Below, one piece after another: positions 1 through 23,959 of a DNA stretch of 26,989 nucleotides (the stretch's first letter is position 1; each line of letters begins with the position of its first letter). Origin of the DNA: an uncultured Azospirillum sp. (lineage in GTDB: Bacteria; Pseudomonadota; Alphaproteobacteria; RF32; CAG-239); the NCBI GenBank assembly GCA_947383875.1, contig CANDEX010000017.1, positions 1-26,989 of the forward strand, in the 5' to 3' direction. The position numbers were made by a program, and so were the translations under genes. The notes below the pieces were generated by a model that was given only the letters and a program-made list of their open reading frames with translations, had not been told where the DNA came from and searched no databases.

Positions 1-55
1 GAAATAAAGAGTAAGCTTGGTGCTTTAAAAGCCGATATGGCACAAAACCAGCCTG
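1..55. repeat. 55-bp direct repeat, copy 1
   Basis: Bases 1-55 are identical to 211-265, a 210-bp (70-codon) period inside the first gene. Copy 1 begins at the window edge, so the array may continue upstream. It encodes E-I-K-S-K-L-G-A-L-K-A-D-M-A-Q-N-Q-P. Confidence 0.9.
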
Positions 56-7000: not shown

Positions 7001-8645
7001 GTTGGATTTAATCAGCTATTATCAGGACAAAATAGGTCTTCCGATTGCTAACGCGGAAGGTGTTTTCCCGCCATTCAGTCTGTTGAATATTTTAAAAACC
7101 GCTACCGGCCTGACAGATGACACTAAAAATTATGCTGATCAGCTGATTAATGACGCCCAAAAATCTATTCTTAACCTTGGTGACGGACTTTATGTTGGCC
7201 AATATGGAGATAAAGTGGCTGAGATTCACGCTAATTTGATGAAACAACTGCAAGAAATACCGGTTGAAGGATTGAGCAATTTTTCTTCGGCAGTAGGACG
7301 TTATGCCAAAACCAATTCAATTATTAAGCCGCTGACAACGCTGTTTCAGAAAGTTATGCTGGAAAAGGCCTGTGCCGGAGATAATTGCAAGCGGATAGAT
7401 ACGGAATATTTTGTCGGTTCTTATGCGAAAGAGCGCGATTTTATGGCACCCAAGGCCGCGCCGAAAGAATATTTGCCGCCGTTGCGTGAGGTTGTTTATT
7501 TTGATGATGTTGATTACGATAACATTCCTAAAGCGGCGGATGGCGGAATTGCCCGCGAAAGTTTCTTAAACAGCGGCGCAAAAATGCCTGAAATCTGGAA
7601 GCGTATTCTGGACGGTAAAGCCTTTGTAGATAAAGACGTTGATTTGAAAGCCCTTTTGGCAGAAGGCGGCGAAACAGCATCCTTTATGCGCGGGGGACGC
7701 TATCCCTGCCGTCTGGATGATCAAATTATCGACGTTGACAATATTGACGGACAATATCGTGTTTATACCGCTAAGGCCGTGTCATCAAAAGCTTCCGCTG
7801 AAGAAAAGGCTTATCGTCCGGCGCAGATGTATAAAATGCCGCAATGTAATGATATAACGCTTCAAAGCAAAGGCGGTATATTGGGTAAACTTTATGTGAC
7901 GGTTGAAGATAAGGTTGAAGGCGTGACAGCTCCGGCGAAAGTTTCCGCTTTTCAGGAGTTTTCAGGCAATGCATCTCATAGTGAATTGGGAACCTTGCTG
8001 CGAGCGACTGATAATGGCGTTTCGTTTAATCAGGCACCGGAAGCTGTTTTAACCCGTTTGAGCAAAATGGCAGATGAAGCCAGTCAATCTAACAGTTCTT
8101 ACGAAAAAAATATGCAGGATGAAGTTTATAAAAAAACGCTGCTTAATAAAAATCAATTCGGTAATTTCTTAACCTTTACCGAGCAGGAAATCAGTTATCG
8201 TCAGGCATTGGAAGAATTAAAATTAAGCATGGAAGAAGCGAAGGAAACCTTGTTTGAACAACTGGAAAAGGCCGGATTTACGCCCGGAGCAGATTATAAT
8301 CTGGCTAAAGAGGAAGACTATGAACTGACCAAGGATGTTCTGAACCGTCGGAAGAATACGCTGGTTAATGAGGGATTTGAAGAGATGGAGGCTGTTCAGG
8401 TTGCGGATAATGATATCGTCGAAGAACGTATGAAAAAAATCAGAAGCCTTCTGACAGCGTTGCGTAAAGATAAGAATGCCTATATTCCGTTGACCGATGT
8501 AACCGAAAGCGGTGCCGAACTTGATGAAAGTATCAAAGCCGAAGAGGTTAATCATCAGGTGACGGCAGAATATAAAAAGCGGGCTGATGAAGAATTTGAA
8601 AAACAAATAAAATCTTATCCCATACCGTTTTGTGCGGCTTATTGA
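3999..8645 (+). CDS. Giant exported coiled-coil protein (1548 aa)
   Basis: The start at 3999 overlaps the previous stop (ATGA), with GGAGGA 8 bases upstream. Residues 1-25 are a signal peptide (cleavage after A-S-H-A), followed by a Pro-rich start of the mature chain. The N-terminal 270 residues are helical with a Cys pair (V-D-C-D...A-A-C-V). Near 280-290 is Y-S-H-S-E-T-L-V-F-G, then an acidic stretch (E-Y-E-E-D-D-D-E-D-Y). Long coiled coils occur at about 620-705 and 870-1010, with a second copy of the module (S-Q-T-L-Y-F-G-A-E) near 836-845 between them. The C-terminal third is mixed alpha/beta with several cysteines and ends in a charged helical stretch. I see no catalytic motif and no membrane segment after the signal peptide. 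It lies 14 bases before a VirB8 gene, so a periplasmic or surface structural role in the T4SS is likely. The family is not recognised. Confidence 0.9.
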   Translation: MMKKVTKIIMLSSLLVMFSGLASHAFLLPPGPVSPTADPGTDVTFGLRNVGATAQQYATQMQAYANEATQKAKSLKKKYMEQFTGFMGGLFKKKEKAAIPGSKTIQESKIADIYDPESVKNALYTLFMAYPVDCDKDADNFAACVAYKTKAEEFYQDTVIEIYTSVRLLEQTLSELTAEVENLSTTFSGAGGGGAESGEDENGVWKNAFNAYQTMNSILKVTQELSAMRAQYEAALFLREQIVPAPYVSKKEREAKEKAAKTSAYTINEEVKLASSGVYSHSETLVFGQLGMVQADFSLTKNTQPEIVEYEEDDDEDYVYNPALYGSVSFADAPKMPLKSAFDGSRQKLLELDKIAPLYNKVQDAKEVHNLLQALDSYRGIFENYEQYKKLHEKSLEAVAAADQCAIQYLNRYYGNPEKVWKGAMPDAAINDYDARQGISGWAVKAFEIAKSEESLSFDSDDLGTMDIDMSIDVNDPASEKKLQADFEKQRETALVNPSQEEEIEKATRESQMISFNIGAQAAQLLVEDQYKSAPQWGVPAVRFPVWKDQINFYTQYLDGKYTNIKDYLHQLDVSTIIVDLAYALNDLTVSDADERANNRAGLDKLSARLAKEQGGTNPASVLKDLENNRNQMLSQALQSKNNRLRSLQNQKKNLQNRIDRAAEVLADNNEQLNVVRQEKLEAETGIAVKERQVEYLTERRGEDADNLIRTTDIEYKEQSFELAPEKVEQVHTITYDSVKEKKLLFDTEEVLSDYNEKVQKLQFEAKHQAVVNAVEDKNQAVRQQLIPVKTNSNNDGSLSLYPENKTSTSGKKSLFRRPFSDNSDFAPLTTPKYVLSQTLYFGAEYPVKQTNFSQEKARLDAELDNKISSQTEEVRMVEKAGVEEKVIDAVETTYTEAIVTETMEVNTEDTEDMALAKVQLSEHQETAAANEKKAAKLKTVSTQKEAEISNANRQIENISRQSEAVEADYVAQVQKIEQAYNQKLEEAQKYIESKRQAKKTLDLISYYQDKIGLPIANAEGVFPPFSLLNILKTATGLTDDTKNYADQLINDAQKSILNLGDGLYVGQYGDKVAEIHANLMKQLQEIPVEGLSNFSSAVGRYAKTNSIIKPLTTLFQKVMLEKACAGDNCKRIDTEYFVGSYAKERDFMAPKAAPKEYLPPLREVVYFDDVDYDNIPKAADGGIARESFLNSGAKMPEIWKRILDGKAFVDKDVDLKALLAEGGETASFMRGGRYPCRLDDQIIDVDNIDGQYRVYTAKAVSSKASAEEKAYRPAQMYKMPQCNDITLQSKGGILGKLYVTVEDKVEGVTAPAKVSAFQEFSGNASHSELGTLLRATDNGVSFNQAPEAVLTRLSKMADEASQSNSSYEKNMQDEVYKKTLLNKNQFGNFLTFTEQEISYRQALEELKLSMEEAKETLFEQLEKAGFTPGADYNLAKEEDYELTKDVLNRRKNTLVNEGFEEMEAVQVADNDIVEERMKKIRSLLTALRKDKNAYIPLTDVTESGAELDESIKAEEVNHQVTAEYKKRADEEFEKQIKSYPIPFCAAY

Positions 8646-8659
8646 TAACGGGGAAACTG

Positions 8660-9418
8660 ATGAGTGATTTAAATAATATGCTGGAAGGCACAAAAATCCT
8701 GTCCTTGACAGATGGCAAAGGGCATTCCCATGAGTTTATCAGCGAAACCGAACAGGAAAAAGCCGGTTCCAAGCTTATGTATTATATGTGGCTGTCTCGC
8801 CTGTTTATCTTTTTTGCCATTGTTTCGCTGTTGATATTTATGAGTTCGTCGCTGGCATTATTTAAGTTGGCACCTCAGGTGAATGTTGAGCCTTTTCTTA
8901 TCATTAATCAGGATTCTTCTGACGGGATAGTTCGTGCCGAGGCGATCACCAACCGCATGGCCTCCAAAAATCAGCTGATGGAAATCTTTGTTCGTCAATA
9001 TGTCATCCTGCGTAATACGATTATTGACGATGAAAAAGAAATGCAAACCAGATGGTATCAGGGCGGAATGTTAAGCTTTCTTTCAGCACCTCGGGTGTAT
9101 AATGAATTCGAACAGTATCGGGAAACAATCTGGGGACAGATTCGTCACGATGGTGTGGTACGGGAAGTTGAAATCATATCCATAGGCAAGCTTGGGGGAG
9201 AACGCAGCCCGGTTTGGAAAGTTGACTTTAAAACTTATGAACTGTCGCGAAATGCAATTGACCAAAAGACTAAAGCCCGGATATTGAGTGTCCGCTATTG
9301 GACAGCTTCGGTAACGGCATTTTTCATTCCCGGCCGCGAGTTTGTCGGGTTGCGTTTAATCAATCCGATAGGCTTTACCGTCATCCGTTATTCTCAGGCG
9401 GAAGTCGAAATTCTCTAG
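8660..9418 (+). CDS. virB8: VirB8-family T4SS inner-membrane protein, first paralogue
   Basis: 252 residues from the ATG at 8660, with GGGGAA just upstream; an in-frame start at 8630 would overlap the previous gene and lacks support. Topology is that of VirB8: about 42 cytoplasmic residues, one membrane helix (about 43-69), and a periplasmic domain. The periplasmic part starts with N-V-E-P-F-L and ends with the family signature N-P-I-G-F-T-V-I-R-Y. VirB8 dimerises in the periplasm and nucleates assembly of the T4SS inner-membrane complex. The downstream VirB8 at 9734 is clearly paralogous: compare E-M-Q-T-R-W-Y-Q-G-G here with E-M-E-A-R-W-M-P-G-G there. The Dot/Icm pair DotI/DotJ is an alternative frame of reference with the same fold. 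The family call is secure; the exact orthology is not. Confidence 0.88.
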   Translation: MSDLNNMLEGTKILSLTDGKGHSHEFISETEQEKAGSKLMYYMWLSRLFIFFAIVSLLIFMSSSLALFKLAPQVNVEPFLIINQDSSDGIVRAEAITNRMASKNQLMEIFVRQYVILRNTIIDDEKEMQTRWYQGGMLSFLSAPRVYNEFEQYRETIWGQIRHDGVVREVEIISIGKLGGERSPVWKVDFKTYELSRNAIDQKTKARILSVRYWTASVTAFFIPGREFVGLRLINPIGFTVIRYSQAEVEIL

Positions 9419-9533: not shown

Positions 9534-9722
9534 ATGTCTAAGAAAATTACCTTGCTTTTTTTGCTGCTTTTGCTCTCGGCTTGCGGCGTATTTGGCTCAT
9601 ATTATGAAGCTGAGCCTGTCGGGGTCGGTAAAGGTGTGGATGAGTTGAAGCTCTCGCCTTGTGCTTGCTTGCAGCTGGAACTGCCTAAAACGCTTCCCGA
9701 TTGGTTTGTTGAAACGATTTAG
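9534..9722 (+). CDS. Small outer-membrane lipoprotein, VirB7-like
   Basis: 62 residues with an AAGGA Shine-Dalgarno sequence upstream. Residues 1-16 are a lipoprotein signal peptide with a poly-Leu core and lipobox L-S-A-C (Cys17 lipidated). The mature part is only 46 residues and has a C-A-C pair (Cys43, Cys45) before L-Q-L-E-L-P. VirB7 proteins are short lipoproteins that bind VirB9 in the outer-membrane core, in some systems through a disulfide. The position between two virB8 genes and one gene before virB9 fits. The sequence itself is too short to prove orthology, so the VirB7 call rests on size, lipobox and neighbours. Confidence 0.8.
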   Translation: MSKKITLLFLLLLLSACGVFGSYYEAEPVGVGKGVDELKLSPCACLQLELPKTLPDWFVETI

Positions 9723-9733
9723 GATGAGGTGAA

Positions 9734-10465
9734 ATGGTTAATCGTTTAGGCGGAAATAACACGCAGCAGCGTTTAATCGGAGGGCACGCGCCGGCGCAAG
9801 CCGCGCCGCGGCGCAGTAACGGTGATGTTTTTGTCGCGAATGTCGGCGAGAAACGTTATTTGTGGACGGCGCGTGCTTTTGCGGTTATTACGGCAATCAG
9901 TATTTGCTGTAACGTGGTGCTTCTGCTGGCGATTGCTCAGGTTATGCCTTTGTTTCGGGTTGAGCCGTTTCTCTTAACGTTTCAGTCTAAGTCTGAGCAG
10001 GTGTATAATATTATGCCGGTTCGCGGCAATTTGGCTGATGAAAAAGCTATTACTGAAGTTTTTGTTCGTGAATATGTTTTGCTGCGCAGCTCATTTGATA
10101 GGGATATTCCGGAGATGGAAGCACGCTGGATGCCGGGCGGTCCTATTCAGGAGATGTCTTCGCCGGCTGTTTATCAGGAATTTTTAAATAAAACGGCCAA
10201 GCGGGCAATAGAGTTAATCAGAACACGCAGTCTGCAGCGTAATGTTCGTATTTTGACGGTTAATGAATTAGGGCAGGGATTGTGGCAGGTTGAGTATGAA
10301 ACGCAGGATATGTATCCGGATTCGACGGCTCCCGAGATTAATTACTGGACGGCATCGCTACGGGTCGGTTACCGTCGCAAAAGTGTTAAATATGGCGAGC
10401 GTTTGAATAACCCTGTCGGGTTTACTGTTGAACGTTATTCTCTGACATATAATAAAGTCAGATAG
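9734..10465 (+). CDS. virB8: VirB8-family T4SS inner-membrane protein, second paralogue
   Basis: 243 residues, 11 bases after the lipoprotein stop, with GATGAGGTG ahead of the ATG. The cytoplasmic N-terminus (about 44 residues) is Asn/Gly/Arg-rich. One membrane helix follows (about 45-70), then R-V-E-P-F-L and a periplasmic NTF2-like domain typical of VirB8. It ends with N-P-V-G-F-T-V-E-R-Y, the conserved C-terminal signature. It stands directly before virB9, the canonical virB8-virB9 order, so it is the better candidate for the true VirB8. The copy at 8660 may be a specialised partner, as with DotI/DotJ or the duplicated VirB8 of rickettsial systems. Confidence 0.9.
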   Translation: MVNRLGGNNTQQRLIGGHAPAQAAPRRSNGDVFVANVGEKRYLWTARAFAVITAISICCNVVLLLAIAQVMPLFRVEPFLLTFQSKSEQVYNIMPVRGNLADEKAITEVFVREYVLLRSSFDRDIPEMEARWMPGGPIQEMSSPAVYQEFLNKTAKRAIELIRTRSLQRNVRILTVNELGQGLWQVEYETQDMYPDSTAPEINYWTASLRVGYRRKSVKYGERLNNPVGFTVERYSLTYNKVR

Positions 10466-10484: not shown

Positions 10485-12161
10485 ATGAGATTAAGTCTTG
10501 GCAAAATAATGGTTATCGGAGCTCTGGCTGCTTTTGTCTGCCATGATGCTTGGTCGCAGGCTACAATGGGGAGCCTTGACCAAAATGCAGACCAAACCCA
10601 GGGGCAGTATATGCCGATGAATTTGGGGTATGCCGGGTTTAATTCTCTGGGAATGACACAGGCCGCTTGGCTTGATCCTTTGCAAAATCTGGGGGAAGGA
10701 CAGAGTAAGCCCGCTTATTCTAAGTATTATTGGTCTCCGGATCTGATTTTGCCTATTCGTCTCCGGGAAGGTATGATGACTTTGCTGAATTTTCCTCAGT
10801 GGGAGTTGATTGAGGATATGTATATCGGCGATAATGCGACTTTCGACGGTCAGATTTCCGGGCCGAATACTATTTTGCTTTACCCGCGTAAGGGGGCCAA
10901 TGTCGGTGTCGATACGAACATCATCATCTTTGGACGTTCCGGTAATAAATATGTTTTCTATGTCAAAAGCGAAGGGGTTAATACCGAACGTTTAACAAAC
11001 TCTATTATTGACATTGATGTCATTGACGGTCCGTCGGGATCTCGAGGAGCCGGCGTGGCTGGCGGCAGCGTTGGGGGCGGTTCCGGAATGAACGCTTCAT
11101 CCTATAAGGCGAATAATTCTCATTCAGCAGATTCTCTTTTTACTAAGCGGTTTCAACGGAGTGACTGGATTAAGGAAATTCCGCTTGATCCGACCAAATT
11201 CCGCTTTGATATAGAGGTCTATGTGCCTAATCCTGATGATGTTGTCATTGCTCCTGAACGTGTATGGCGGGATGATATTTTCACTTATATTGATTTGGGT
11301 GAAAAGGCTCTTAATATGACACAGCGTCCGATTGTAACGCTTATTGTTGAGCGGATTGAGGTGCCGGTTGGTTTCCGTACCAAAGGGCCGAATAACCGCC
11401 TGATTATTGTTGAAGGAATTGGCGATATGGTTATGCGTAACGGTAAACGTTTGGTTTGCCTGAAGTTGCGCCGTTCGGATGACGCCGGAATGGAGAACGC
11501 AACTTATGCGACTGACTTCGATGATGCCGCTTGGGATGTTCCTCAACCTCTTCCCGGCGGAAGATCTCGCCCGACAGGCGGTACCGGAAGTGATAGCGAA
11601 TTTAATGGTCCTGGCGGTGGAATTAGTGGCCATATGCCCGGTCAGTTTGATATTCAGGTGGGACAGAGTGAAATCGTTGTGCCGCGTTATGGGGCTAATG
11701 GCGGAGGTAACGGCGGTAATGTTAATATTGATTATCAGCGTCCTTACCCTAATGACGGATTTGATTATTCAAAAATGCAGCACGTTCGTAATAACAACCA
11801 ATATGGCGGTGCTGGCGTAAATGGTGCCGGCGGTGCTGGCGGAGGAGCCGGATTCGGAAACGGAGGATACGGCTTCGGCGCGGGACTTGGTGATGGTGAT
11901 GCTTCAAGTATTTCCATTGAGCTTGGAACGGATGCTAATGTCGGTAAATTGGAAACCTTGTGGGGGCAGCTGTCTAAGAAGTATCCGGATGTTCTCGGGC
12001 GATATGAGCCTTTCTTCTCTGTTGATGCTCCGGCTGACGGACAAGGTAAAGAGCTTTTCCACCTCAGGGTTGGTCCGGTTAAAAGTTTGGAATCCGGGGA
12101 TAATGTCTGCAGCCGCCTTGGGCGTAACGGTGTCTTTTGTAGTGTAGTTAGAACGCAATGA
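10485..12161 (+). CDS. virB9: VirB9-family outer-membrane core protein with C-terminal SPOR domain
   Basis: 558 residues, about twice a usual VirB9. A signal peptide (cleavage near A-W-S-Q-A, about residue 26) is followed by a VirB9 N-domain at about 83-185 (I-R-L-R-E-G...F-P-Q-W-E-L...N-T-I-L-L-Y-P...N-K-Y-V-F-Y-V). The VirB9 C-domain is at about 224-335 (P-E-R-V-W-R-D-D-I-F-T-Y-I-D...C-L-K-L-R-R). A 130-residue Gly/Asn-rich linker follows, then a SPOR-like domain at about 476-558 with L-F-H-L-R-V-G-P-V (524-532) and two cysteines (542, 552). VirB9 forms the outer-membrane core ring with VirB7 and VirB10; SPOR domains bind denuded peptidoglycan. A SPOR fusion would fasten the secretion channel to the cell wall. 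The VirB9 call is firm and the SPOR call rather good, both from pattern reading only. Confidence 0.87.
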   Translation: MRLSLGKIMVIGALAAFVCHDAWSQATMGSLDQNADQTQGQYMPMNLGYAGFNSLGMTQAAWLDPLQNLGEGQSKPAYSKYYWSPDLILPIRLREGMMTLLNFPQWELIEDMYIGDNATFDGQISGPNTILLYPRKGANVGVDTNIIIFGRSGNKYVFYVKSEGVNTERLTNSIIDIDVIDGPSGSRGAGVAGGSVGGGSGMNASSYKANNSHSADSLFTKRFQRSDWIKEIPLDPTKFRFDIEVYVPNPDDVVIAPERVWRDDIFTYIDLGEKALNMTQRPIVTLIVERIEVPVGFRTKGPNNRLIIVEGIGDMVMRNGKRLVCLKLRRSDDAGMENATYATDFDDAAWDVPQPLPGGRSRPTGGTGSDSEFNGPGGGISGHMPGQFDIQVGQSEIVVPRYGANGGGNGGNVNIDYQRPYPNDGFDYSKMQHVRNNNQYGGAGVNGAGGAGGGAGFGNGGYGFGAGLGDGDASSISIELGTDANVGKLETLWGQLSKKYPDVLGRYEPFFSVDAPADGQGKELFHLRVGPVKSLESGDNVCSRLGRNGVFCSVVRTQ

Positions 12162-15100
12162 GTAAAGAAGTATTAACACATTCCGAGAGTTATGTGAAGA
12201 AAACCAACCGCATTATTCTTGTGGTTGGTATTACTTCTTTTGTAATCTTTGTCCTCGGTGTGATGTTGCTTATGCAGAGCGGTCCGATACAGGACGACTA
12301 TACGGAACCCGTATTTACCGATAATGATGACGCCTTGACGATTACGGCAGACAACGGCCCGAGTGATAATATTGAATTTGGTGCGATTGACGATGGCAGC
12401 ATCCCTATTACGACGACCCCGAACCCGGTACAAATGGGGCAGGTTGTTTTGGGGACGGATGCTAAAAATGTGCTTACTTTGGGAACAAACGCGAAAGCTG
12501 TTGTTCGTGTTGTGTCTGTTCAGCTGGCTGAACCGCCTTTTGATGGTTTTGAGTTTGAAGACAGATGTTCGGGTAAAGAACTTCGCGGTCATGAAACTTG
12601 TGACATTACAATGAGCTGGACGCCTGTCGTCGCCGGAAATGTTCAGAATAATTTTATTATTACTTGGCATGAAGCCAACTTGTCTTCTTCAAACACCAAA
12701 TCCGAAAAAGTTCCGGTTGAAGGTAATGCTATTCGCAAAGAAGACTGTAATTTTTGCGAGCAGACACTTCCCGGAAGCGGAACGAATATTTCTGATAAAG
12801 GGGCATTAAAAACCCGTAATGCCATTGGGCCTAATGGTGAAATTATCGGCACAATTGACGAAGACGGCTATGTTCGTGATGCGAACGGCAATGTTATTGG
12901 TCGTGTAAATTCAGCCGGAATGATTGTTGATGAAAACGGTAATATTATCGGTGTAGCTGAAAATCGCCGTTTGGTATATGATTCTAACGGTAACGTTATC
13001 GGATATGTTAATCCTGACGGAACGGTTGTTGACAAAGATGGCAATGTCATCGGGCGTACACTGCCTGACGGGACTGTTGTTGATATGAGCGGCAATGTCA
13101 TTGGGCGCGCTGTCGACGCAGGTTTTGTTTATGATAAAGACGGTAATATTATTGGTCGTGTTCAGCCGGATGGTTCGGTTATTGACATGAACGGCAATGT
13201 CATTGGCCGTTTGAATGAAAAAGGAGAAGTTGTCGATTCTTCAGGCAATATCATTGGTCGTGTCAGCAAGCAGGGACGGGTTGCTGTCGATGCCAACGGT
13301 AACGTCATCGGTGTTGTTATGCCGGATGGTTCTGTCGTGGATAAAGACGGAAATATTGTCGGTTTTGTTGATGAAAACGGCAATGTCGTTGGTAAAAACA
13401 TTCTTGGCAATGCCGGAGGAATGGTTAAATTAGCTTATGATAAGAACGGCAAAGTTATCGGCTATGTTGATGAAAACGGCAACGTGGTGGATGCGCATGG
13501 TAATATAATCGGCCGTATGGATGCCAATGGTAATGTTGTTGATGAAAACGGCAACGTCATCGGTAAAGTGGTATCCCTGCCGCAGCGGCGTTTAGCTTTT
13601 GATAAGGACGGTAATGTCATCGGTTACGTTGATAAGGACGGTAATGTTGTTGACCCGAGCGGCAATATTATCGGTAAAGTGCAATCTGACGGAACCATTG
13701 TTGATGCGGAAGGTAACATTATTGGTAATGTTGTATCCCTGCCGCAACAGCGTTTAGCCTATGATAAAGACGGTAATATCATTGGTCATGTTGACGCTGA
13801 CGGTAATGTTATTGATGCCAACGGCAATATAATTGGCAAAGTCCAAGCTGACGGAACAATCGTTGATAAAGACGGTAATGTGATTGGTCGAGCTGCTTAT
13901 GTCCAGGGACGGCGTTTAGTTTATGACGATGACGGCAATGTTATCGGTTATGTTGACGAAAACGGCAATGTTCGGGATGCTCAGGGAAATATTGTCGGTC
14001 GCGTACTCCCCGATGGGACAGTTGTTGATAAAAACGGAAATGTGATTGGTCGGGTAGCCGATATGAATATCGGTGCGCAACGGCGTTTGGCCTATGATAA
14101 AGATGGCAATATTATCGGCTATATTGATGAAAATGGCAATGTGGTTGATTTTAACGGTAATATCGTCGGTAAAATGCTGGATGACGGCACTTTGGTTGAC
14201 TTGGAGGGAAATGTCATCGGCAAAGCAGGTGATGTGGTCAACCTGGTATTGGATAAAGACGGTAAAGTCGTCGGTTATCTGACAGAAGACGGCAAAGTTT
14301 ATGATTTGAACGGCAGTCAGATAGGATATGTTGATGAGCGTGGCAATATTATCAGCTCTCTGGATAAAACATTAGGGGCTTTGGTGCAAACGCGAATGAT
14401 TCCGATTACGCCCAAAGGAACCGTGTTAGGTAAACTCAATAGTGACGGTACGGTGGTGCAGGATTTGCGAACTGTCGGTCGTGTGTTGTCTAACGGATTG
14501 GTGCGGGATCCTTCAGGAGCGGAGGTTATCGCTCGTTTGGTGCGCGGAGGTTTGGTTGTCGGCTACGGGTGCAAAAACATAGGCTATCTTGAGGCAGACG
14601 GCAAAATTCGTAAAGGAAATCAGGAAACTAAGCTTAAACCGATGCCTGATGGTGTCATCTTGGATGCCGCGAATAACTATGTCGGTGAAGTTGTCAAAAC
14701 CGGAAAAGTGTTTGATGATTCTTGCACTTATTTAGGTGATGTCGGAACAGACGGCATTGTTCGCACGGCAGACGGTGTGTATGTGGGGTGTGTCAACCCT
14801 GACGGCACGGTACTGAATGAACAGGGAGAAATTATCGGTGGTGTTGCGCGCAATGGCGTGGCCGTATCTTATGACGGGGAATACTTGGGGCAAGTTTCCC
14901 CCGACGGATTAATCATTGCGTTGTCCGGACAACCCGTGGGTTGTGTTGGCACATACGGCGATGTGTTCAATAAAAACGGCAGCTATATTGGTCGGGTGCT
15001 TGATAAAATTTATGCCTATGATTTATATGGCAATTTCTTGAATATCGTCGGTCCTAACGGCAAAGTGGCAATAAGTGGTCAGCCTGATGCCAGACTTTAT

Positions 15101-16237
15101 GCCAATAATTTGATTGCGAATAATCGTAATGAAATTATCGGGGTCTTAATGGATGAAAAATCTACCTTACTGACTCCGGAAGGTAAGTTTTTAGGACGTT
15201 TATTCCCGGATGGACAGATATATGATGGTCGAGGCATTGCAATCGGCAAAATGAGCGGCGATGCATCCGGATTCTTGAATAAACAGCTTGGAACCCTGGT
15301 AAAAAAAGGTGTTGTCGCTGATTTTAAAGGTAACAAGATTGGTCTGGTGAATCATGACGGGCAAGTTATTACTCGTTTTGGTGAAGTGCTCGGAAATATA
15401 GACGCAAAAGGCAATTTCATAGATGCCAGAGGCGATTATCGCGGCGGTGTCGTATCCCGAGGAAGTGCTATCGGCTATGACGGATCATATCTGGGGTATG
15501 CTGTGGCTGACGGCAGCGTAATCAGTATGGAGGGGGCTAAAGTTGGTCAAGTATCCTCGGATAATAAGGTCGTTGACGGACAAGGCAAAATTATAGGGGA
15601 AATCATTCCTGAAAACATTGTGGTTGACATCTGGGGAAATTATCGGGGACGTGTAAATTCTCTGGGAGACGTGATCGATTTGAAAGATGAAGTTATCTCA
15701 GCTGTTTTACCGGGAGGATCGACGGATAAAAATTTAAGCCTGTTGCGCCGTGGTGCCGTTGTCAATTTCGGAGGAAATCTTTCAGGAGCCGTTATGCCCG
15801 ATGGAACGGTGATTGATCGAGAAAATGTACCGGTTGGCAGAGTTCTTTCTGACGGCAATATTATCAGTACAGCAGGTAAATTAATCGGCGAAGTGGCCGA
15901 CGGTGATATAGTTATTGATAACTCGGATAAAGTTGTAGGCTATGTTAATTTTGATGGTAGAATCAGAAATCGGGACGGCAGCCTTATCGGTCGTACACTC
16001 TCCGGTGATTTAGCGATTGACAATAATGATAATATTCTCGGCAGAGTCTATAAAATCGGTGCTACGATTTTAGGTAATGACGGCAGCTATAGCGGGCGTT
16101 TGGCTGCAGATGGCAGCGTTGTTGATGTGGCCGGAAAAAATATAGGCTACCTCAAAAATAACGGCTCTTATATTGATTTGGATAAAAAAGTAGCGGGCTA
16201 TGCTCTTCAGGAAGTGGCAAAGAACCGGAGGAACTGA
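12158..16237 (+). CDS. Membrane-anchored giant repeat protein: N-terminal half of a split VirB10/DotG-like scaffold
   Basis: 1359 residues; the start overlaps the virB9 stop (ATGA). A short cytoplasmic N-terminus and one membrane helix (about 18-41) resemble the anchor of VirB10/DotG. Residues about 82-172 look like an ASH/Hydin-type immunoglobulin-like domain: P-N-P-V-Q-M-G-Q-V-V-L-G, then G-H-E-T-C-D-I-T-M-S-W-T-P-V. Roughly 28 regular repeats follow (about 221-725), with unit close to G-N-V-I-G-R-V-L-P-D-G-T-V-V-D-K (16-17 residues). From 747 to the end the same pattern is degenerate. There is no VirB10 domain; that domain is at the end of the next gene. The repeat is probably a beta-solenoid or beta-roll with Asp/Asn-Gly turns (inference). 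The protein would reach from the inner membrane far into the periplasm. Confidence 0.85.
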   Translation: MSKEVLTHSESYVKKTNRIILVVGITSFVIFVLGVMLLMQSGPIQDDYTEPVFTDNDDALTITADNGPSDNIEFGAIDDGSIPITTTPNPVQMGQVVLGTDAKNVLTLGTNAKAVVRVVSVQLAEPPFDGFEFEDRCSGKELRGHETCDITMSWTPVVAGNVQNNFIITWHEANLSSSNTKSEKVPVEGNAIRKEDCNFCEQTLPGSGTNISDKGALKTRNAIGPNGEIIGTIDEDGYVRDANGNVIGRVNSAGMIVDENGNIIGVAENRRLVYDSNGNVIGYVNPDGTVVDKDGNVIGRTLPDGTVVDMSGNVIGRAVDAGFVYDKDGNIIGRVQPDGSVIDMNGNVIGRLNEKGEVVDSSGNIIGRVSKQGRVAVDANGNVIGVVMPDGSVVDKDGNIVGFVDENGNVVGKNILGNAGGMVKLAYDKNGKVIGYVDENGNVVDAHGNIIGRMDANGNVVDENGNVIGKVVSLPQRRLAFDKDGNVIGYVDKDGNVVDPSGNIIGKVQSDGTIVDAEGNIIGNVVSLPQQRLAYDKDGNIIGHVDADGNVIDANGNIIGKVQADGTIVDKDGNVIGRAAYVQGRRLVYDDDGNVIGYVDENGNVRDAQGNIVGRVLPDGTVVDKNGNVIGRVADMNIGAQRRLAYDKDGNIIGYIDENGNVVDFNGNIVGKMLDDGTLVDLEGNVIGKAGDVVNLVLDKDGKVVGYLTEDGKVYDLNGSQIGYVDERGNIISSLDKTLGALVQTRMIPITPKGTVLGKLNSDGTVVQDLRTVGRVLSNGLVRDPSGAEVIARLVRGGLVVGYGCKNIGYLEADGKIRKGNQETKLKPMPDGVILDAANNYVGEVVKTGKVFDDSCTYLGDVGTDGIVRTADGVYVGCVNPDGTVLNEQGEIIGGVARNGVAVSYDGEYLGQVSPDGLIIALSGQPVGCVGTYGDVFNKNGSYIGRVLDKIYAYDLYGNFLNIVGPNGKVAISGQPDARLYANNLIANNRNEIIGVLMDEKSTLLTPEGKFLGRLFPDGQIYDGRGIAIGKMSGDASGFLNKQLGTLVKKGVVADFKGNKIGLVNHDGQVITRFGEVLGNIDAKGNFIDARGDYRGGVVSRGSAIGYDGSYLGYAVADGSVISMEGAKVGQVSSDNKVVDGQGKIIGEIIPENIVVDIWGNYRGRVNSLGDVIDLKDEVISAVLPGGSTDKNLSLLRRGAVVNFGGNLSGAVMPDGTVIDRENVPVGRVLSDGNIISTAGKLIGEVADGDIVIDNSDKVVGYVNFDGRIRNRDGSLIGRTLSGDLAIDNNDNILGRVYKIGATILGNDGSYSGRLAADGSVVDVAGKNIGYLKNNGSYIDLDKKVAGYALQEVAKNRRN
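12820..14340 (+). repeat. Regular 16-17-codon repeat array A
   Basis: About 28 units of G-[NK]-[VI]-[IV]-G followed by [RKY]-V-x-x-[DN]-G-x-V-[VI]-D. They are grouped in larger units introduced by R-R-L-A-Y-D-K-D-G. The protein repeat is highly regular, but the DNA copies differ at many third positions, so the array is old and kept by selection on the protein. Confidence 0.9.
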
Positions 16238-16241
16238 GTTG
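16227..16241 (+). promoter_or_regulatory. Shine-Dalgarno and TTG start that define the second giant gene
   Basis: GGAGG (16227-16231) lies 7 bases before TTG (16239-16241), directly after the TGA stop (16235-16237) of the first giant gene. From this TTG the protein begins with a proper signal peptide. The in-frame ATG at 16200 has no Shine-Dalgarno and would add 13 residues before the basic n-region. Confidence 0.75.
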
Positions 16242-19200
16242 AAACGGCGGATAAACGGACAATATTCATTAATCACAAAATTTGCACGGGTTTCCTGTGC
16301 TGTTCTTTGCTTGTTAGGCATATATTTGCCGTCTGCCGCTGCACAGGAAATTACAGCCGTTGACTTTAACGGTGACTTAATTGGTAAAGTCATCCCTGAC
16401 GGTAAAGTTGTCAGTTTTGATAATCAGCTTATCGGTAATGTAACGGCAGACAGTTTGATTACTGATTTCGAGGGTAATATTATTGGTGGTGTTGTTCCGC
16501 AAGGTATCGCTATCGGCAACGATAATAAACCTCTGGGTAAAGTGAATAATGATGGTTCTGTCCGCTTAGCCTCCGGCAAAATCATAGCCAAGGTTTTGCC
16601 TAATGGTTTGGTTATTGATGATTTTTTCAATATCAGCGGAGCGGTGCTGTTTCCGGGGTTGATTTATTCTGATGAAGGTCGAACCGTCGGCCGATTAACC
16701 GGAGACGGTCTGTACACCAATCTGCAAGGACAGGAAATCGGGTTTGTCTCTCCTGACGGTTATGCGTACCGCAGAGCCGGGCAGGATTATGTGTTAGACG
16801 GCCGTCTGATATCGTCTAAGATGGTGGTTTCTCCTTCCGGCGAGTTTATCGGCAGTGTCGCGCCCGGCGGTAACGTAACTAATTTTGAAGCAGTAACAAT
16901 TGGTTTTATTAAGGCTAACGGCTTCGTCTATAACGAAAATAATCAGATTGTCGGTAGTATCGTCCGTTCAGGTTATGCTTTGGATAACAGCGGAAAGTAC
17001 TTAGGTTTTGTGACTTATAACGGCGAGGTGGTCAATAAGGGAACTGTCGTGGGCAATATGCGCTCCGACGGATTAATTGCCGACAAAGCGGGAAATCTGA
17101 TAGGTGCGGCTGTGGACTTTGCTGCTGCAGCAACGGATTTTAACGGTAAATACCTTGGTCGAATCATGCCGGAAGGTAAAATTGCCCGCAGCCGGGAGAT
17201 TACAGGTTTTGTCGGTCCTCGGGGCGTCACATTCGGAGCCGATGGCGCACTTAATGGTAAATTGATTACGGCAGGACCTGTTTTTGATTACCGCGGTGGT
17301 TTGCAAGCTCACGCGCTTAAAAACGGTTCGGTTATCCGCCTTGAAGGAACACCGGCCGGTTATGTGGTTGATAATATAGCATATGAAAACGCCGGTCGTG
17401 TCATCGGTGCTTCTATGAAAGATTTATTGGCTGTTAATACCAATAACCAAACCTTGGGCGTTGCCGGTATCAGCGGTATGGTTATGGATGGTGAAGAGCG
17501 AAAATATATGTCGCCTTTTGGTTACCTGTTTTCCGTGGACGGGAAAACAGGCGGCCGTGGTTTTCCGCTTTCATCGATATATAATCTGACCGGAACACCT
17601 GTTGCCCAAATTATGCCCGGCGGAAACTTAGTAAACAAAAATGCAGCCGCCATCGGTAAATTGACGCAATCAGGATTTAATGTTGATGAGCGTAACCAGA
17701 TTATCGGAAAAAATATTGAGGCAGGTTATGTTGTAGGCTCTGATGGAGCCAATATCGGTATTTTGTCTGAAAGCAACCTGGTTTTAGATAGCAGTTTGAG
17801 CCCGATAGCTAAGCTCTTGCCCGATAATGCAGCCGTGGGTGCCGCAAACAATACATCGGTAAATATGATGCCTGTTCTGGGTCGCGGTTCCGCCGATTCG
17901 ATGGCTTTGGCATTCAGCGGCAGTCTTATGGGCTACGCCGATCCGGCTGGTTCTGTTCGTGATTTTAACGGTTCTCGTTTAGGTAGAGTGACGGCAGAGG
18001 GATTGGTTATTGATAATATGGGGTCCAGTTTGGGCGGAACGGTAACTTACGCGCCGGTGATTGACGATCGTTGCGGACTGCTGGGTGTTATTACACCGCG
18101 CGGCGATATTCGAAATTACCGTGAAACAGTTATGGGGCGACCGCTTTTGAATGGTCAGGCAGTTTCAGAAAATGGAACCTATATGGGGTATGCCGTTGTC
18201 CCGACAGTCGTGATTGACTATAATGGTAATACGATTGGTACGGTTTCTGCCACCGGACAAGTCTTAAATTATAACAATGGTATTCTTGGCTGCATTGATA
18301 AACGCGGTTTTCTTAAGTCCGATGACGGCAGACATCTGGCACATACGGTTGAGTACGCCTCAGTAATTAATTTTAATGGGGTGATGATTGGGCGCAGTAT
18401 ACTTGATGCGCAGGTGGTCAATGAGCAAAATCAGTTTATCGGCTATACTCAGGCTAATGGTAATGTTAATTCCAAAACAGGTGTGCCGATCGGTAATTTA
18501 TTTAAATACCGCCACGCTTTTAGTGCTGCCAATAAATACATCGGTCGCGTGAATAATAAAGCAGAAGTCGTGGATGGCAGCGGTGCCGTAATCGGCAGTG
18601 TTGATTTTGAGGGTAATGTTATTCAGGATAATCGTAAAATTGGTTATGCTTTGTATGACTTATACATCTATGATAACGATTTTGAAGCCATCGGCTACAT
18701 TCTTAAAGACGGAACTGTTTTGTCTTTTATTAATCAAAATCTGGGCATCCTCAGCAAAGGTTTTCTGATTGATAAAAACAATGAAGTTCGCGGTCGCGGT
18801 AATCGTGATTTTTATGTTCGAAACGACAGCAATCAGATTGTTGGCGAATTGCTTTTGAATGGTGAATTACGTGATACGAGCAATAATGTCTTGGGCAAGG
18901 TTACCAAAAACGGCAATATTTTAGATAGCAATGGCCGAGTTATCGCTGTTGCCAAACCATTACAATATTATGGCGAAATGGTTGCTCGGGAAAAAGTTTA
19001 TGACGAAAACGGAAATCTGATAGGCTATGTTAATGCCGATGGTTCCGTAACTGATGAGAACGGCAATGTTATCGGCTATGTGCAAAACGGTAAAGTTGTC
19101 GATAAAAACGGTAATGTTATCGGGCAACTGGCCAGTGAAACATATGTCTATGATAAAGACGGCAATGTCATAGGCAAAGTTCTTCCTGATGGCACAGTTG

Positions 19201-22034
19201 TTGATATGGATGGAAAAGTCATTGGTAAAGTCGGTGCTGAAGGGCAAGTCATCGATGCCAACGGTAATATCATCGGGTCTATTGTAAAAGCCGGACAAAA
19301 TGAAGTTTACGCATATGACGAAGACGGCAATATCATTGGTCGGATACGTCCGGACGGAACCGTAGTTGATATGAACGGCAAAGTCATCGGCCGGGTTAAT
19401 GAAAATGGTGAAATTGTTGACAGCAATGGAAAAGTTATTGGTGTGACCGGAGACAAATTGGCCTATGACATGGACGGTAAAGTTATAGGACGCATACTGC
19501 CGAACGGAACAGTTGTCGATAAGAATGGTAATATCATCGGTCATGTAAATGCCGCCGGAGAAGTTGTTGACGCGCTGGGAAATGTTATCGGACGTAGCGG
19601 AGCCGAAAAACTGGCTTATGACGCTGATGGTAACGTTATCGGAAAAATTCTGCCTGACGGAACCGTGGTCGATATGAACGGCAAAGTCATCGGTCGCGTT
19701 AATGAAAACGGTGAAATTGTTGATGCTAAAGGTAAAGTTATTGGTGTAACCAAAGATAAATTGGCTTACGATCCAAACGGCAATGTGATTGGCCGAGTTC
19801 TGCCGGATGGTACGGTCGTTGACAAAAGCGGTAAAGTTATCGGAAAGGTCAATGAAAGAGGAGAGGTTGTTGATCCTTTTGGAAATGTTATCGGATCAAT
19901 CGGTGCTGAAAGACTGGCTTATGATGCCAATGGTAATGTCATTGGTAAAATTTTGCCGGATGGAACGGTAGTTGATAAAAATGGTAAGGTCATCGGTCGC
20001 GTGAATGCCGCCGGAGAAATTATTGACGCCAACGGTAATGTCATTGGTGTTTCGGGAAAAGAAATGCTGGCATATGATAAAAATGGCAATGTGATTGGTC
20101 GGGTTATGCCGGACGGAACGGTTGTCGACGCGAACGGAAAGGTTGTCGGACGTGTTCAGGCAGACGGAACTGTTGTTGATTTAAATGGCAATGTGATTGG
20201 GACGGCAAATACATCAGACTTGGTTTTTGATGCAGCCGGTAATGTAATTGGGCGTGTTCAGGCAGATGGAACTGTTGTCGATGCCGAAGGTAATGTCATC
20301 GGAAAAATTAATGAGAAAGGTGAAGTCCTTGATGCGGAAGGAAACGTCATCGGGACCGCCAGTACGGATAATTTGGCCTTTGATGCCAATGGAAATGTTA
20401 TAGGCAAAGTTCTTCCCGACGGAACAGTGGTTGATGCTAACGGTAAAGTCATTGGCCATGTTAATGAAAAGGGAGAAGTAGTTGATGCTCGCGGTAAAGT
20501 TATCGGCTATGCTAAGAAGCCGTCTTGGTACAGACGCCCGTCCGGTTTACCTCAAATCGGATTATCTCCCGAAGAAAAAGCCCTGACAGAAAAATATCGC
20601 AAATCTTTAGGAATTGCTTTGACGCCGGACGGAGAATACCTCGGCGAAATTATGGAAGACGGCAGCGTTGTCAACAAAGCCGGCGAAATAGTCGGACATC
20701 GAATGCCTGATGGACTTATTATTGATGACGATGGAGCTTTGATAGGTGTTGAGGAAAGCGAAAAAGTTTCTGGCGGCGATATGTTTATTCCGGCCGGAAC
20801 GTTTGGTCAGGGTGGTGCCTATGGAATTGGTACAGGTCCCGGCGGTAACCTTGGTCCCGGCGGTGGTTTTGGTCCGGGAGAACGTTATGATCCGCAGCGA
20901 GCCGCCGCATTAGATGCCGCACAGCAAGAGCGACGCAGCAATATGCAGGTAGGGCGGATTAGCAGCGGAATCAGTCCGGATTCTTTTGATGGTATGCAGA
21001 AAAACTGGGATGAACAGGGCATTAAAAAAGCCATTTCGTCTTGGCGTGTTGATTTAAGTGAAATGATTTTTGCCGATAAACCGATTCCGGCAGTTATTGC
21101 CCGTTCAATTGACAGTAATAATCCGACCCCGGTGACAGCCTATGTTGAGCGCAACATTTATGCGGAAGAGGGACGTAAAATCATTATTCCTGCCGGCAGC
21201 CGTATTATGGGAACTTTAGGGGGAATGACCGGAACTTCCGAAACCACTTCGCAGTCTGCCAAAGTTCAAATTTCGTGGGAAAGATTGATTCGTCCTGATG
21301 GTTCATTGTTTGTCTTCAGTGGTGTAACCGGAGATGCGCAGGGCCGCGGTGGTGCTTTAGGTTATCTTGATCAGCAATTATTCAAGAAATATACTTTGCC
21401 GATTATGACTACGGCATTGACGAGCTATACGTCATATATGATGGCTGACAGTGATAACAATGATAATAGCAGCATTAACGAAACGCCAAAACAGCAGGCT
21501 GCAAATGATGCGCGTCAAAACTTCCTGAACCAGATGAATCAGGTTTTTGAAGAAATTTTGGCTGATAAAACCAATATTAAACCGTTGACCTATGTTCCGG
21601 CCGGAACCCGTATCATTGTTTATCCGAATGTTGATTTGTGGATGCGTACCCGCGAGCGTAATCCGCAAGAATTGGGAGTCGGCGGTAAAAAAGACGTCTT
21701 TATTGATGACCCGGCAACAACAGGAAAACGTGAACTGGAGAAAAACAGACGGTCACTGGGTCGCGTAGACAGCACCTCAACCGGTGGAAATGTTGTCTAT
21801 GAATCTCAAGCGATAGATGTTGAACCAAGCGGCGGAACGCCTACATTGATAGATGACGGCAAATCTTCAGGAGCGAAGAAAGCCAATACGCCGCCGCCGT
21901 TGATTTCCAGTCCGGCTGCCACCGGTTCAACCCCGCCGCCGCCGTCATTTGCAACTTCGACAACCCCGGGAGCTGCGACAGCACCAAGTACCGGCAACAA
22001 CAATACCAACAACAGCGTACCTCAGCTGTTCTAA
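16239..22034 (+). CDS. virB10: Giant repeat protein with C-terminal VirB10/TrbI domain
   Basis: 1931 residues from the TTG at 16239. Residues 1 to about 36 are a signal peptide (basic K-R-R-I-N-G-Q start, V-S-C-A-V-L-C-L-L-G core, cleavage near P-S-A-A-A), so unlike usual VirB10 it has no inner-membrane anchor of its own. Degenerate G-x-x-I-G repeats fill about 38-915, and very regular ones about 918-1424 in super-units near 51 residues. A Gly-rich linker lies at about 1510-1560. The VirB10/TrbI domain is at about 1610-1805, with I-P-A-G-S-R-I-M-G, the antenna-like segment L-T-S-Y-T-S-Y-M-M and the closing V-P-A-G-T-R-I-I-V-Y-P. The C-terminal tail is Pro/Thr/Asn-rich. VirB10 links inner and outer membranes and forms the outer-membrane pore. 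In size and layout it recalls Helicobacter CagY and Legionella DotG, which also carry long repeats before the VirB10 domain. Confidence 0.9.
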   Translation: MKRRINGQYSLITKFARVSCAVLCLLGIYLPSAAAQEITAVDFNGDLIGKVIPDGKVVSFDNQLIGNVTADSLITDFEGNIIGGVVPQGIAIGNDNKPLGKVNNDGSVRLASGKIIAKVLPNGLVIDDFFNISGAVLFPGLIYSDEGRTVGRLTGDGLYTNLQGQEIGFVSPDGYAYRRAGQDYVLDGRLISSKMVVSPSGEFIGSVAPGGNVTNFEAVTIGFIKANGFVYNENNQIVGSIVRSGYALDNSGKYLGFVTYNGEVVNKGTVVGNMRSDGLIADKAGNLIGAAVDFAAAATDFNGKYLGRIMPEGKIARSREITGFVGPRGVTFGADGALNGKLITAGPVFDYRGGLQAHALKNGSVIRLEGTPAGYVVDNIAYENAGRVIGASMKDLLAVNTNNQTLGVAGISGMVMDGEERKYMSPFGYLFSVDGKTGGRGFPLSSIYNLTGTPVAQIMPGGNLVNKNAAAIGKLTQSGFNVDERNQIIGKNIEAGYVVGSDGANIGILSESNLVLDSSLSPIAKLLPDNAAVGAANNTSVNMMPVLGRGSADSMALAFSGSLMGYADPAGSVRDFNGSRLGRVTAEGLVIDNMGSSLGGTVTYAPVIDDRCGLLGVITPRGDIRNYRETVMGRPLLNGQAVSENGTYMGYAVVPTVVIDYNGNTIGTVSATGQVLNYNNGILGCIDKRGFLKSDDGRHLAHTVEYASVINFNGVMIGRSILDAQVVNEQNQFIGYTQANGNVNSKTGVPIGNLFKYRHAFSAANKYIGRVNNKAEVVDGSGAVIGSVDFEGNVIQDNRKIGYALYDLYIYDNDFEAIGYILKDGTVLSFINQNLGILSKGFLIDKNNEVRGRGNRDFYVRNDSNQIVGELLLNGELRDTSNNVLGKVTKNGNILDSNGRVIAVAKPLQYYGEMVAREKVYDENGNLIGYVNADGSVTDENGNVIGYVQNGKVVDKNGNVIGQLASETYVYDKDGNVIGKVLPDGTVVDMDGKVIGKVGAEGQVIDANGNIIGSIVKAGQNEVYAYDEDGNIIGRIRPDGTVVDMNGKVIGRVNENGEIVDSNGKVIGVTGDKLAYDMDGKVIGRILPNGTVVDKNGNIIGHVNAAGEVVDALGNVIGRSGAEKLAYDADGNVIGKILPDGTVVDMNGKVIGRVNENGEIVDAKGKVIGVTKDKLAYDPNGNVIGRVLPDGTVVDKSGKVIGKVNERGEVVDPFGNVIGSIGAERLAYDANGNVIGKILPDGTVVDKNGKVIGRVNAAGEIIDANGNVIGVSGKEMLAYDKNGNVIGRVMPDGTVVDANGKVVGRVQADGTVVDLNGNVIGTANTSDLVFDAAGNVIGRVQADGTVVDAEGNVIGKINEKGEVLDAEGNVIGTASTDNLAFDANGNVIGKVLPDGTVVDANGKVIGHVNEKGEVVDARGKVIGYAKKPSWYRRPSGLPQIGLSPEEKALTEKYRKSLGIALTPDGEYLGEIMEDGSVVNKAGEIVGHRMPDGLIIDDDGALIGVEESEKVSGGDMFIPAGTFGQGGAYGIGTGPGGNLGPGGGFGPGERYDPQRAAALDAAQQERRSNMQVGRISSGISPDSFDGMQKNWDEQGIKKAISSWRVDLSEMIFADKPIPAVIARSIDSNNPTPVTAYVERNIYAEEGRKIIIPAGSRIMGTLGGMTGTSETTSQSAKVQISWERLIRPDGSLFVFSGVTGDAQGRGGALGYLDQQLFKKYTLPIMTTALTSYTSYMMADSDNNDNSSINETPKQQAANDARQNFLNQMNQVFEEILADKTNIKPLTYVPAGTRIIVYPNVDLWMRTRERNPQELGVGGKKDVFIDDPATTGKRELEKNRRSLGRVDSTSTGGNVVYESQAIDVEPSGGTPTLIDDGKSSGAKKANTPPPLISSPAATGSTPPPPSFATSTTPGAATAPSTGNNNTNNSVPQLF
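18990..20512 (+). repeat. Regular 16-17-codon repeat array B
   Basis: The unit type is the same as in array A, here as a super-repeat of about 150 bp starting K-L-A-Y-D-x-D-G-x-V-I-G and continuing L-P-D-G-T-V-V-D. Neighbouring copies share short stretches of identical DNA, for example around 20150 and 20250, but most synonymous sites differ. Confidence 0.9.
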
Positions 22035-22045
22035 GGAGTTGAAAG

Positions 22046-23014
22046 ATGAGTTTTAAAGTTTTGGAATCTGTTCTGCGTCCTTTAGCCTATTGGTATAATC
22101 AGGACAATATTGAAGAAGTTGCAGTTAATCGCTCCGGACAAGTCTGGCTCCGGCTTCGCGGTAAAAGGGCTTACCCTTGGGTGATGCATAAAGATGAGAA
22201 ATTGAGTAAAGAATACTTGACGGATTTACTCTATATCATTGCCAATACATATGAACTGCCGTTTGATCCGGTTCAGGGAACGCCTGTTGTTTACGCAACC
22301 ATTCCCGGAGACCACCGTTTTTCGGCTGTCAGTGGGCGTAACGTCATGTATGACCAGGATGATTTGACCGGAGGTGTGGCTCTAACCATTCGTGTTCATA
22401 GCGATGACGTTGCTTTTGGTTTGCAGGACTACGGATTAAAGCAAGGTGAAGTTTTGCATAAAATTAATCCATTAAAAGATATTAAAGATCCGGAAGACCC
22501 GTATGAACGTCTGTTGTTGAGCATCAAACGCGGTGATCATATTTTGGTATCAGGTGCGACTGCAACCGGTAAAACGACATTTCTGAATAATTTGCTGAAA
22601 ATATTAGATATCCATAAACGTATTATTACAATTGAAGATACGCGAGAATTGTTGGTTCCTCACCCTAATAGAGTGCATATTGTCATGTCTCGTACTGAAC
22701 AAACCAACGAGTTTGATTATTCAAAAATCATTGACTTGGTTGTGCGCTTTACGCCTGACGCAATCATCGGCGGAGAAATTTCAACAAACAACGCCGGTGC
22801 TTTGTGGGAGTTAATGGGGTCAGGTCACGATAACTGTTTGGCTACAATTCACGCAGAGAGTTCTGAAGCTGCCTATGAAGCGTTTGTTGACCGTATATTG
22901 CACAGTTATCCGACGATTGATAGAGAAAAAACCATTAAGGAAATGCACCGCAAATTGCGTGTTGTTCAAATCAACCGTGACGGTAACCTGCGTGCCGTAA
23001 CCGAAGTAACGTAG
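22046..23014 (+). CDS. virB11: VirB11-family hexameric traffic ATPase
   Basis: 322 residues with AAGGAG 7 bases before the ATG. It shows the full set of secretion-ATPase motifs: Walker A G-A-T-A-T-G-K-T (170-177), Asp box I-T-I-E-D-T-R-E (194-201), Walker B region D-A-I-I-G-G-E (238-244) and His box G-H-D-N-C-L-A-T-I-H-A (260-270). The length matches VirB11, and the N-terminal domain (1 to about 140) is of the VirB11 kind. The enzyme sits on the cytoplasmic face of the inner membrane and powers substrate transfer or pilus assembly. It directly follows the VirB10 gene (11-base gap), which is the classical order, and it is the last gene before the terminator. All catalytic residues are present. 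Confidence 0.97.
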   Translation: MSFKVLESVLRPLAYWYNQDNIEEVAVNRSGQVWLRLRGKRAYPWVMHKDEKLSKEYLTDLLYIIANTYELPFDPVQGTPVVYATIPGDHRFSAVSGRNVMYDQDDLTGGVALTIRVHSDDVAFGLQDYGLKQGEVLHKINPLKDIKDPEDPYERLLLSIKRGDHILVSGATATGKTTFLNNLLKILDIHKRIITIEDTRELLVPHPNRVHIVMSRTEQTNEFDYSKIIDLVVRFTPDAIIGGEISTNNAGALWELMGSGHDNCLATIHAESSEAAYEAFVDRILHSYPTIDREKTIKEMHRKLRVVQINRDGNLRAVTEVT

Positions 23015-23950: not shown

Positions 23951-23959
23951 TTGTTTTCC

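Follow-up and report, generated by a model that had tools for sequence, protein, structure and literature searches.

A VirB-type secretion locus with two giant genes

We analysed a stretch of 26,989 nucleotides (hereafter the window) from an uncultured Azospirillum sp. of the alphaproteobacterial lineage CAG-239 (assembly GCA_947383875.1, contig CANDEX010000017.1, positions 1 to 26,989). The window holds part of a VirB-type secretion locus, in which two VirB8-type genes and a VirB9 gene are followed by two giant genes, denoted A and B, by a gene for a VirB11-type ATPase and then by genes on the minus strand. VirB10 appears to be divided between A and B: the inner-membrane anchor lies on A and the VirB10 domain on B. 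A reading of the sequence alone, made without database searches (the sequence-only reading), had proposed this division over two polypeptides, and we found it throughout the order of CAG:239, with single-chain relatives outside that order. We conclude that it is a real, conserved and probably derived split of VirB10. The features of the two genes are given below; residue numbers of B count from ATG 16200, where its open frame (16200-22034) begins.

12158..16237, plus strand: protein A, 1359 amino acids (aa), anchor half of the probably split VirB10
12212..12268, plus strand: inner-membrane transmembrane anchor of A, residues 19-37 (Kyte-Doolittle hydropathy 2.93)
12386..12751, plus strand: predicted ASH/PapD-like domain of A, residues about 77-198
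12836..14356, plus strand: regular array of A, 17-residue repeats, residues 227-733; length varies between species
14417..16192, plus strand: degenerate array of A, residues 754-1345 (end approximate); length constant at 592-593 aa across 20 sequences
16227..16231, plus strand: GGAGG, putative Shine-Dalgarno site for B, made by the last Arg-Arg codons of A (CGG AGG)
16239..22034, plus strand: protein B, 1931 aa from TTG 16239, probably the exported half, with the VirB10 domain; frame open from ATG 16200
16239..16343, plus strand: signal-peptide-like N-terminus of B, ...IYLPSAAA ahead of QEITAV (by eye, relatives and hydropathy)
16347..18944, plus strand: degenerate array of B, residues 50-915; length constant at 864-867 aa across 20 sequences
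18993..20519, plus strand: regular array of B, residues 932-1440 (end approximate); length-variable, 24-509 aa
21066..21641, plus strand: TrbI/VirB10 outer-membrane domain of B, residues 1623-1814 (PF03743, E = 6.1e-34; ComB10 structure 2bhv, 8.2e-21)

Protein A has a single strongly hydrophobic segment, preceded by a short N-terminal tip, and the corresponding anchors scored 2.49-2.98 in all 20 A proteins compared (window and 19 loci). The domain that follows models as an ASH/PapD-like immunoglobulin fold, for which fold matches were found. After it come an invariant Cys-x-x-Cys motif (C197, C200) and 17-residue beta repeats up to the end of A, which matched the beta-flower repeat profile PF21785 at 9.2e-91 (299.7 bits, curated cut-off 38); no match of A to the TrbI profile was found at E <= 0.01. 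The alignment of A comprised the window and 16 of the 22 A homologues. In four genomes (G114, G120, G018, G021) the open frame with the N-terminal domain of A reached 2314-2734 aa.

Protein B begins with a basic stretch and a hydrophobic stretch that ends in ...PSAAA directly ahead of QEITAV, followed by the degenerate array, the regular array, a linker, the VirB10 domain and a low-complexity tail. Its hydropathy and small residues resemble those of a signal peptide, as the sequence-only reading had described, and similar starts were found in five further loci (L034, L046, L047, L050, L051). The repeats are the same as those of A (PF21785, 3.2e-113, 372 bits), so that both proteins pass the profile cut-off as beta-flower repeat proteins (PF21784/PF21785, DUF3659). 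The C-terminal TrbI domain and the slot between VirB9 and VirB11 place B in the VirB10/TrbI family. However, the inner-membrane helix that belongs to the same chain in this family lies on A, and the two were joined in none of the 100 genomes with both genes on one contig. A protein search returned 1090 homologues of B; one of those listed is named Candidatus Scatocola faecigallinarum.

We set aside ATG 16200 as the start of B in favour of TTG 16239, because a TTG or GTG lay 1-5 nt past the stop codon of A in 20 of 20 loci. In five further loci the first start of B was 2-8 nt past that stop and was an ATG in two (L047, L051). B therefore probably starts at TTG 16239, with ATG 16200 unused, and A and B (1359 + 1931 aa) together amount to about 3290 residues, the total given by the sequence-only reading.

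The division is conserved across the order

A scan for the VirB10 domain with one genome per species yielded 21 loci, classified as alphaproteobacteria, proteobacterium or Pseudomonadota and nearly all from uncultured organisms or metagenome-assembled genomes; three came from deer cecum or rectum, and one was Azospirillum sp. CAG:239. The gene order VirB8b-VirB9-A-B-VirB11, with A and B separate and adjacent, was present in 19 of them, while the two others (L009, L011) begin inside B. In the phylogenetic tree the window grouped with L001 and L002, both from genomes of the CAG:239 order.

Among 153 genomes of this order, PF03743 was detected in 121, the model of the N-terminal part of A in 117, and both in 116. 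In 100 of these 116 genomes the two matches lay on one contig and strand, A always upstream in a separate frame, and none of the 100 had a frame long enough for A and B together. In the other 16 the matches were on different contigs. Five genomes had B only: the array upstream of B is cut by the start of the contig in G019 and G129, G152 is cut inside B, the upstream region of G101 is masked, and a frame of 24540 aa in G142 suggests masking. A was found without B in one genome of 117 (G039), whose contig appears to end before the VirB10 domain of B, since it leaves less sequence than separates A from that domain in G038 and G040, two genomes whose A is equally long. Neither of the findings that the sequence-only reading had named as grounds against itself, a frame joined at 16200-16240 or an A protein lacking any VirB10 neighbour, was thus encountered. 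Since all 100 genomes keep A upstream in a frame of its own, never fused to B, sequencing error cannot explain the split.

A Shine-Dalgarno site in the last codons of A

We compared the end of A in 24 loci of the order (window, 19 loci, L046, L047, L050, L051). Its C-terminus NRRN was identical in all 24, and its two Arg codons were CGG AGG in 23 and AGG AGA in one, although CGG AGG is expected for only 0.5% of Arg-Arg pairs from the codon usage of 99 open reading frames (ORFs). In 24 of 24 loci, GGAGG or AGGAG stood just before a TTG, GTG or ATG that opens B 1-8 nt past the stop of A; these loci are related, so that the count describes conservation and not 24 independent draws. Counting all split loci, the motif was in the last codons of A in 24 of 25, compared with 1 of 80 control gene ends (VirB8b, VirB9, VirB11 and B of the same loci). 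A and B are therefore two separate conserved genes with a conserved coupling site. The site within the last codons of A and the start of B within 8 nt of the stop indicate that B is translated separately from A but coupled to it. We read the last residues of A as held by selection on the putative ribosome-binding site of B.

Fixed and variable repeat blocks

The repeat unit is 17 residues long, with maxima in the spacing of glycines at 17, 34 and 51 in three of the four segments and at 17, 34 and then 54 in the regular segment of A. As the sequence-only reading had it, the order is regular then degenerate in A, and degenerate then regular in B. Across 20 sequences each of A and B (window and relatives), the degenerate blocks were fixed in length, and their name is somewhat misleading. 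The regular arrays varied, from 224 to 514 aa in A and over the range listed above in B. At the DNA level, those of the window contain tandem copies of 162 and 303 bp with 73-81% matches. AlphaFold2 modelled an A orthologue (L015, 1101 aa) with a confident all-beta array, at a mean predicted local distance difference test (pLDDT) score of 80.6 and about 90 in the fixed block. In a piece of a B orthologue (L014) the array was likewise all-beta, mostly at 80-93 to about residue 620, and the VirB10 domain was modelled without confidence. The fixed and variable block lengths, together with the tandem DNA copies, suggest that the fixed blocks are working surfaces and that the regular arrays, which lie towards the anchor in A and towards the VirB10 domain in B, may be adjustable spacers.

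Single-chain relatives and the origin of the split

In a class-level sample of 385 genomes, 24 had beta-flower repeats, five of them from the order. From 13 of the 19 beta-flower genomes outside the order's 153 we took 14 stretches; the other six genomes (G179, G271, G294, G339, G392, G407) had short frames. This search, which the sequence-only reading had recommended, found complete single chains of 1273-2831 aa in seven of the 14 stretches (L022, L023, L024, L025, L027, L028, L029). They have an A-like start (profile E 1.9e-9 to 3.4e-43) and a B-like end (2.3e-66 to 1.2e-88), and their genes sit after VirB9 and before VirB11, in the same slot as A and B. Four stretches (L026, L031, L032, L035) were truncated. 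L033 and L034, two contigs of G202, the lone genome of its order in the sample, together hold a split gene whose second protein has a signal-peptide-like start. It should be noted that B of G202 is broken once more, into 409 and 1317 aa (L034, 8997-9066). In L030 (G352), a giant VirB10 is broken at 9602-9605 into parts of 589 and 1598 aa that overlap by 4 nt, the second lacking a signal peptide; the cause may be decay or an error, or the gene may have split here a second time, independently.

From VirB9, VirB11 and the VirB10 domain we built a tree (46 taxa, 945 columns) and rooted it on ordinary VirB10 loci; L042, L043 and L049 were excluded manually, and a locus was kept only if it had at least two of the three genes. 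L034 and the order formed a split clade with 100% support, placed inside the giants with 99%; the node uniting all giants had 59%. Because the outgroup-rooted tree nests the split clade within single-chain giants, the split appears derived and, most simply, arose once, together with a new signal peptide, in the ancestor that G202 shares with the order. The outgroup loci (L036-L041) encode short VirB10s of 505-612 aa without a repeat array. The ASH-like domain of A stands ahead of the VirB10 domain in L040 (3.5e-6) and, more weakly, in L036 (2.7e-3), suggesting that VirB10 had this domain before it had repeats. By eye, the VirB10s of L036, L038, L040 and L041 have lipobox-like starts, apparently without an inner-membrane helix.

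Interpretation and alternatives

We propose that A and B are one functional VirB10 in two chains, docked and translationally coupled, and most simply of one origin from a single-chain giant; we give this reading a probability of roughly 0.72. The separate conserved genes, the coupling site, the single-chain relatives in the same slot and the nested position in the tree carry it. A would be held in the inner membrane by its one helix, with the ASH/PapD-like domain and the beta-repeat array in the periplasm. B would be exported by its own signal peptide and contribute a further beta-repeat array with the VirB10 domain at its end; this domain would form the outer-membrane ring with VirB9, as in other VirB10s. 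Ribosomes finishing A would restart at the Shine-Dalgarno site in its last codons and translate B, keeping the two proteins in step. The last ~590 residues of A and the first ~865 of B, the fixed blocks, would meet in the periplasm, and their contact would take the place of the absent peptide bond. The arrays of variable length, which face the membranes, would serve as adjustable spacers. The wider claim, that the type IV secretion system (T4SS) of the whole order uses a non-covalent VirB10 made of two separately exported giants whose fixed blocks dock in the periplasm, we consider an even bet. If it is true, the signal from the inner-membrane ATPases crosses a protein-protein joint and not one polypeptide.

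Several observations weigh against the proposed two-chain reading. The fixed block of B scored 135-301 on the single chains, not above its scores on A proteins (281-334), compared with 958-995 on split relatives; the fixed block of A scored 90-296 on the single chains, 678-737 on split relatives and 102-115 on B proteins. The order A-then-B fitted better in three of eight single chains (L022, L026, L028) and B-then-A in five (L023, L024, L025, L027, L029). Among the matches listed, cross-matches of any repeat block to any array often reached 100-200 bits. In view of the block order test and these common cross-matches, we claim no break point. The view of the sequence-only reading that one ancestral array was cut in the middle thus finds support at the two ends of the proteins but not in the interior blocks, which did not match in order. 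Since the fixed blocks are not recognisable as such in single chains, they may have been remodelled once the split had occurred. Duplication followed by loss of opposite ends would look like fission, and the node that places the single-chain L029 outside has 59% support. Furthermore, the coupling motif is missing in L034, the sole split genome outside the order, and the signal peptide of B was recognised by hydropathy and inspection by eye only.

The alternative to be taken most seriously, although we regard it as unlikely, is that the outer-membrane VirB10 consists of B alone, with A as an independent, undocked inner-membrane stalk or scaffold, the covalent bridge having been lost. With an array and a VirB10 domain of its own, B could build the outer ring unaided, and the lipoprotein-like starts seen by eye in four of the six outgroup loci suggest that a VirB10 without anchor may be tolerated. 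However, A and B are adjacent in all 100 one-contig genomes and translationally coupled, and the fixed block of A is as constrained in length as that of B. It is still less probable that the hydrophobic stretch of B is an uncleaved signal anchor, which would hold both chains in the inner membrane. This stretch reaches 1.6 (19-residue hydropathy) in 12 of 20 B proteins, including that of the window. However, it never exceeds 2.22, under every A anchor, and small residues precede a conserved mature-looking start, (Q/I/A)EITA; the signal-peptide-like starts of the five further loci argue in the same direction.

Two further explanations would undo the division itself. Programmed frameshifting or stop readthrough into a fused A-B product, for which the few nucleotides between the stop of A and the start of B might speak, is very improbable: the frame of B shifts from locus to locus with respect to A (+1 in 13, +2 in four and in frame in three of 20), stop codons vary, and a fusion would bury the signal peptide in mid-chain. 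We therefore rejected recoding. A sequencing or assembly frameshift, or a pseudogene, is barely conceivable. The raw frames of A and B overlap at 16200-16237, and two relatives from outside the order, L030 and B of L034, carry breaks that could be errors. Against this stand the separate frames in all 100 genomes, the signal-peptide-like start and Shine-Dalgarno site of B, and the conserved ends. Conservation in the 100 genomes rules out such an error for the window and its order.

Comparison with known systems

VirB10 is thought to relay energy-dependent changes from the inner to the outer membrane. An order-wide divided VirB10 would be an experiment made by evolution itself, in which either the covalent link proved unneeded or a mappable docking interface took over. 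The fixed blocks and variable arrays point to where the interface would lie, and the single-chain relatives are natural controls. Like A and B together, the single-chain giants (L022-L025, L027-L029) have an anchor, an ASH-like domain, repeats and a VirB10 domain in the same slot; they differ in being one chain and not two coupled proteins. The short outgroup VirB10s resemble B in having the VirB10 domain beside VirB11, and L040 and weakly L036 share the ASH-like domain of A. However, they lack the array, and four of the six have the lipobox-like start.

CagY is one chain, in which repeats, VirB10 domain and anchor stand together, whereas here they are spread over two. A 2019 paper (PMC6520456) describes CagY of the Helicobacter pylori Cag system as having a VirB10 domain and a repeat region of more than 1,300 residues, which recombination makes variable. 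B is similar in its VirB10 domain and long repeat region, the match of the domain to CagY structures being weak (1.6e-4, 3.9e-4) and the repeats likened by description only. DotG/IcmE of the Dot/Icm system has, according to a 2019 review (PMC6362355), a VirB10-like C-terminal domain after a repeat region of ~600 residues thought to form beta-helices. It differs in being one chain of a type IVB secretion system (T4BSS). The ATPase of the window is of VirB11 type (TIGR02788, 144.7 bits, under the model cut-off of 249.95) and not a DotB-type partner (TIGR02524, 15.5 bits, cut-off 463.3). With this ATPase and the gene set VirB8, VirB8, VirB9, VirB10 and VirB11, the label DotG-like used in the sequence-only reading finds no support as a family assignment. 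Canonical VirB10s (TraF, TrwE, ComB10) have the C-terminal TrbI domain as in B, but the canonical protein inserts in both membranes, as a passage of PMC6362355 states, whereas here the anchor and the domain are on two proteins. In searches of the open-licence literature we found no description of a two-chain VirB10, met none of single-chain giant beta-flower VirB10s, and found no paper that combines VirB10 with beta-flower, gene fission or DUF3659 or that names a split VirB10.

Neighbouring genes and the nature of the system

The remaining genes of the locus are as follows.

8630..9418, plus strand: VirB8-type protein, first copy
9734..10465, plus strand: VirB8-type protein, second copy
10485..12161, plus strand: VirB9 (CagX domain) with a SPOR domain at the C-terminus; its last 4 nt overlap the start of A
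22046..23014, plus strand: VirB11-type ATPase (profile match)

The SPOR domain of the VirB9 protein (PF05036, 1.4e-4) is, to our knowledge, an unusual feature at the C-terminus of a VirB9. The coupling protein VirD4 (PF02534) and VirB4 (PF03135) were both found in 18 of 18 genomes searched, whereas the relaxase family PF03432, the sole one searched, occurred in none of 15 split-order genomes and in two of the 18 overall (G202, which is split, and G225). The presence of the system throughout the order, with VirD4 and VirB4 but without this one relaxase family, suggests a resident machine that is more likely to transfer protein than DNA. Of genomes G001-G013, 12 of 13 had two VirD4-type frames, of ~733-751 aa and ~773-831 aa. 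An origin from a mobile element was considered and rejected: tblastn with the N-terminus of A matched none of 72,556 plasmid records, and among 50,697 phage records the VirB10 domain matched two, weakly (24.6% identity); both are faecal records that lack annotation.

Upstream of the VirB8-type genes, the region 37-8645 holds four ORFs (319, 542, 482 and 1548 aa) with no Pfam matches or with coiled-coil-like ones below the cut-offs. The 319-aa and 542-aa ORFs have a long near-identical stretch in common, and the 1548-aa ORF has a hydrophobic segment at its start. Downstream of VirB11, the minus strand carries three genes without a Pfam match (23222-25929; 242, 421 and 234 aa). They may be part of the system, since in 16 of the 21 loci all three have relatives on the downstream side of VirB11.
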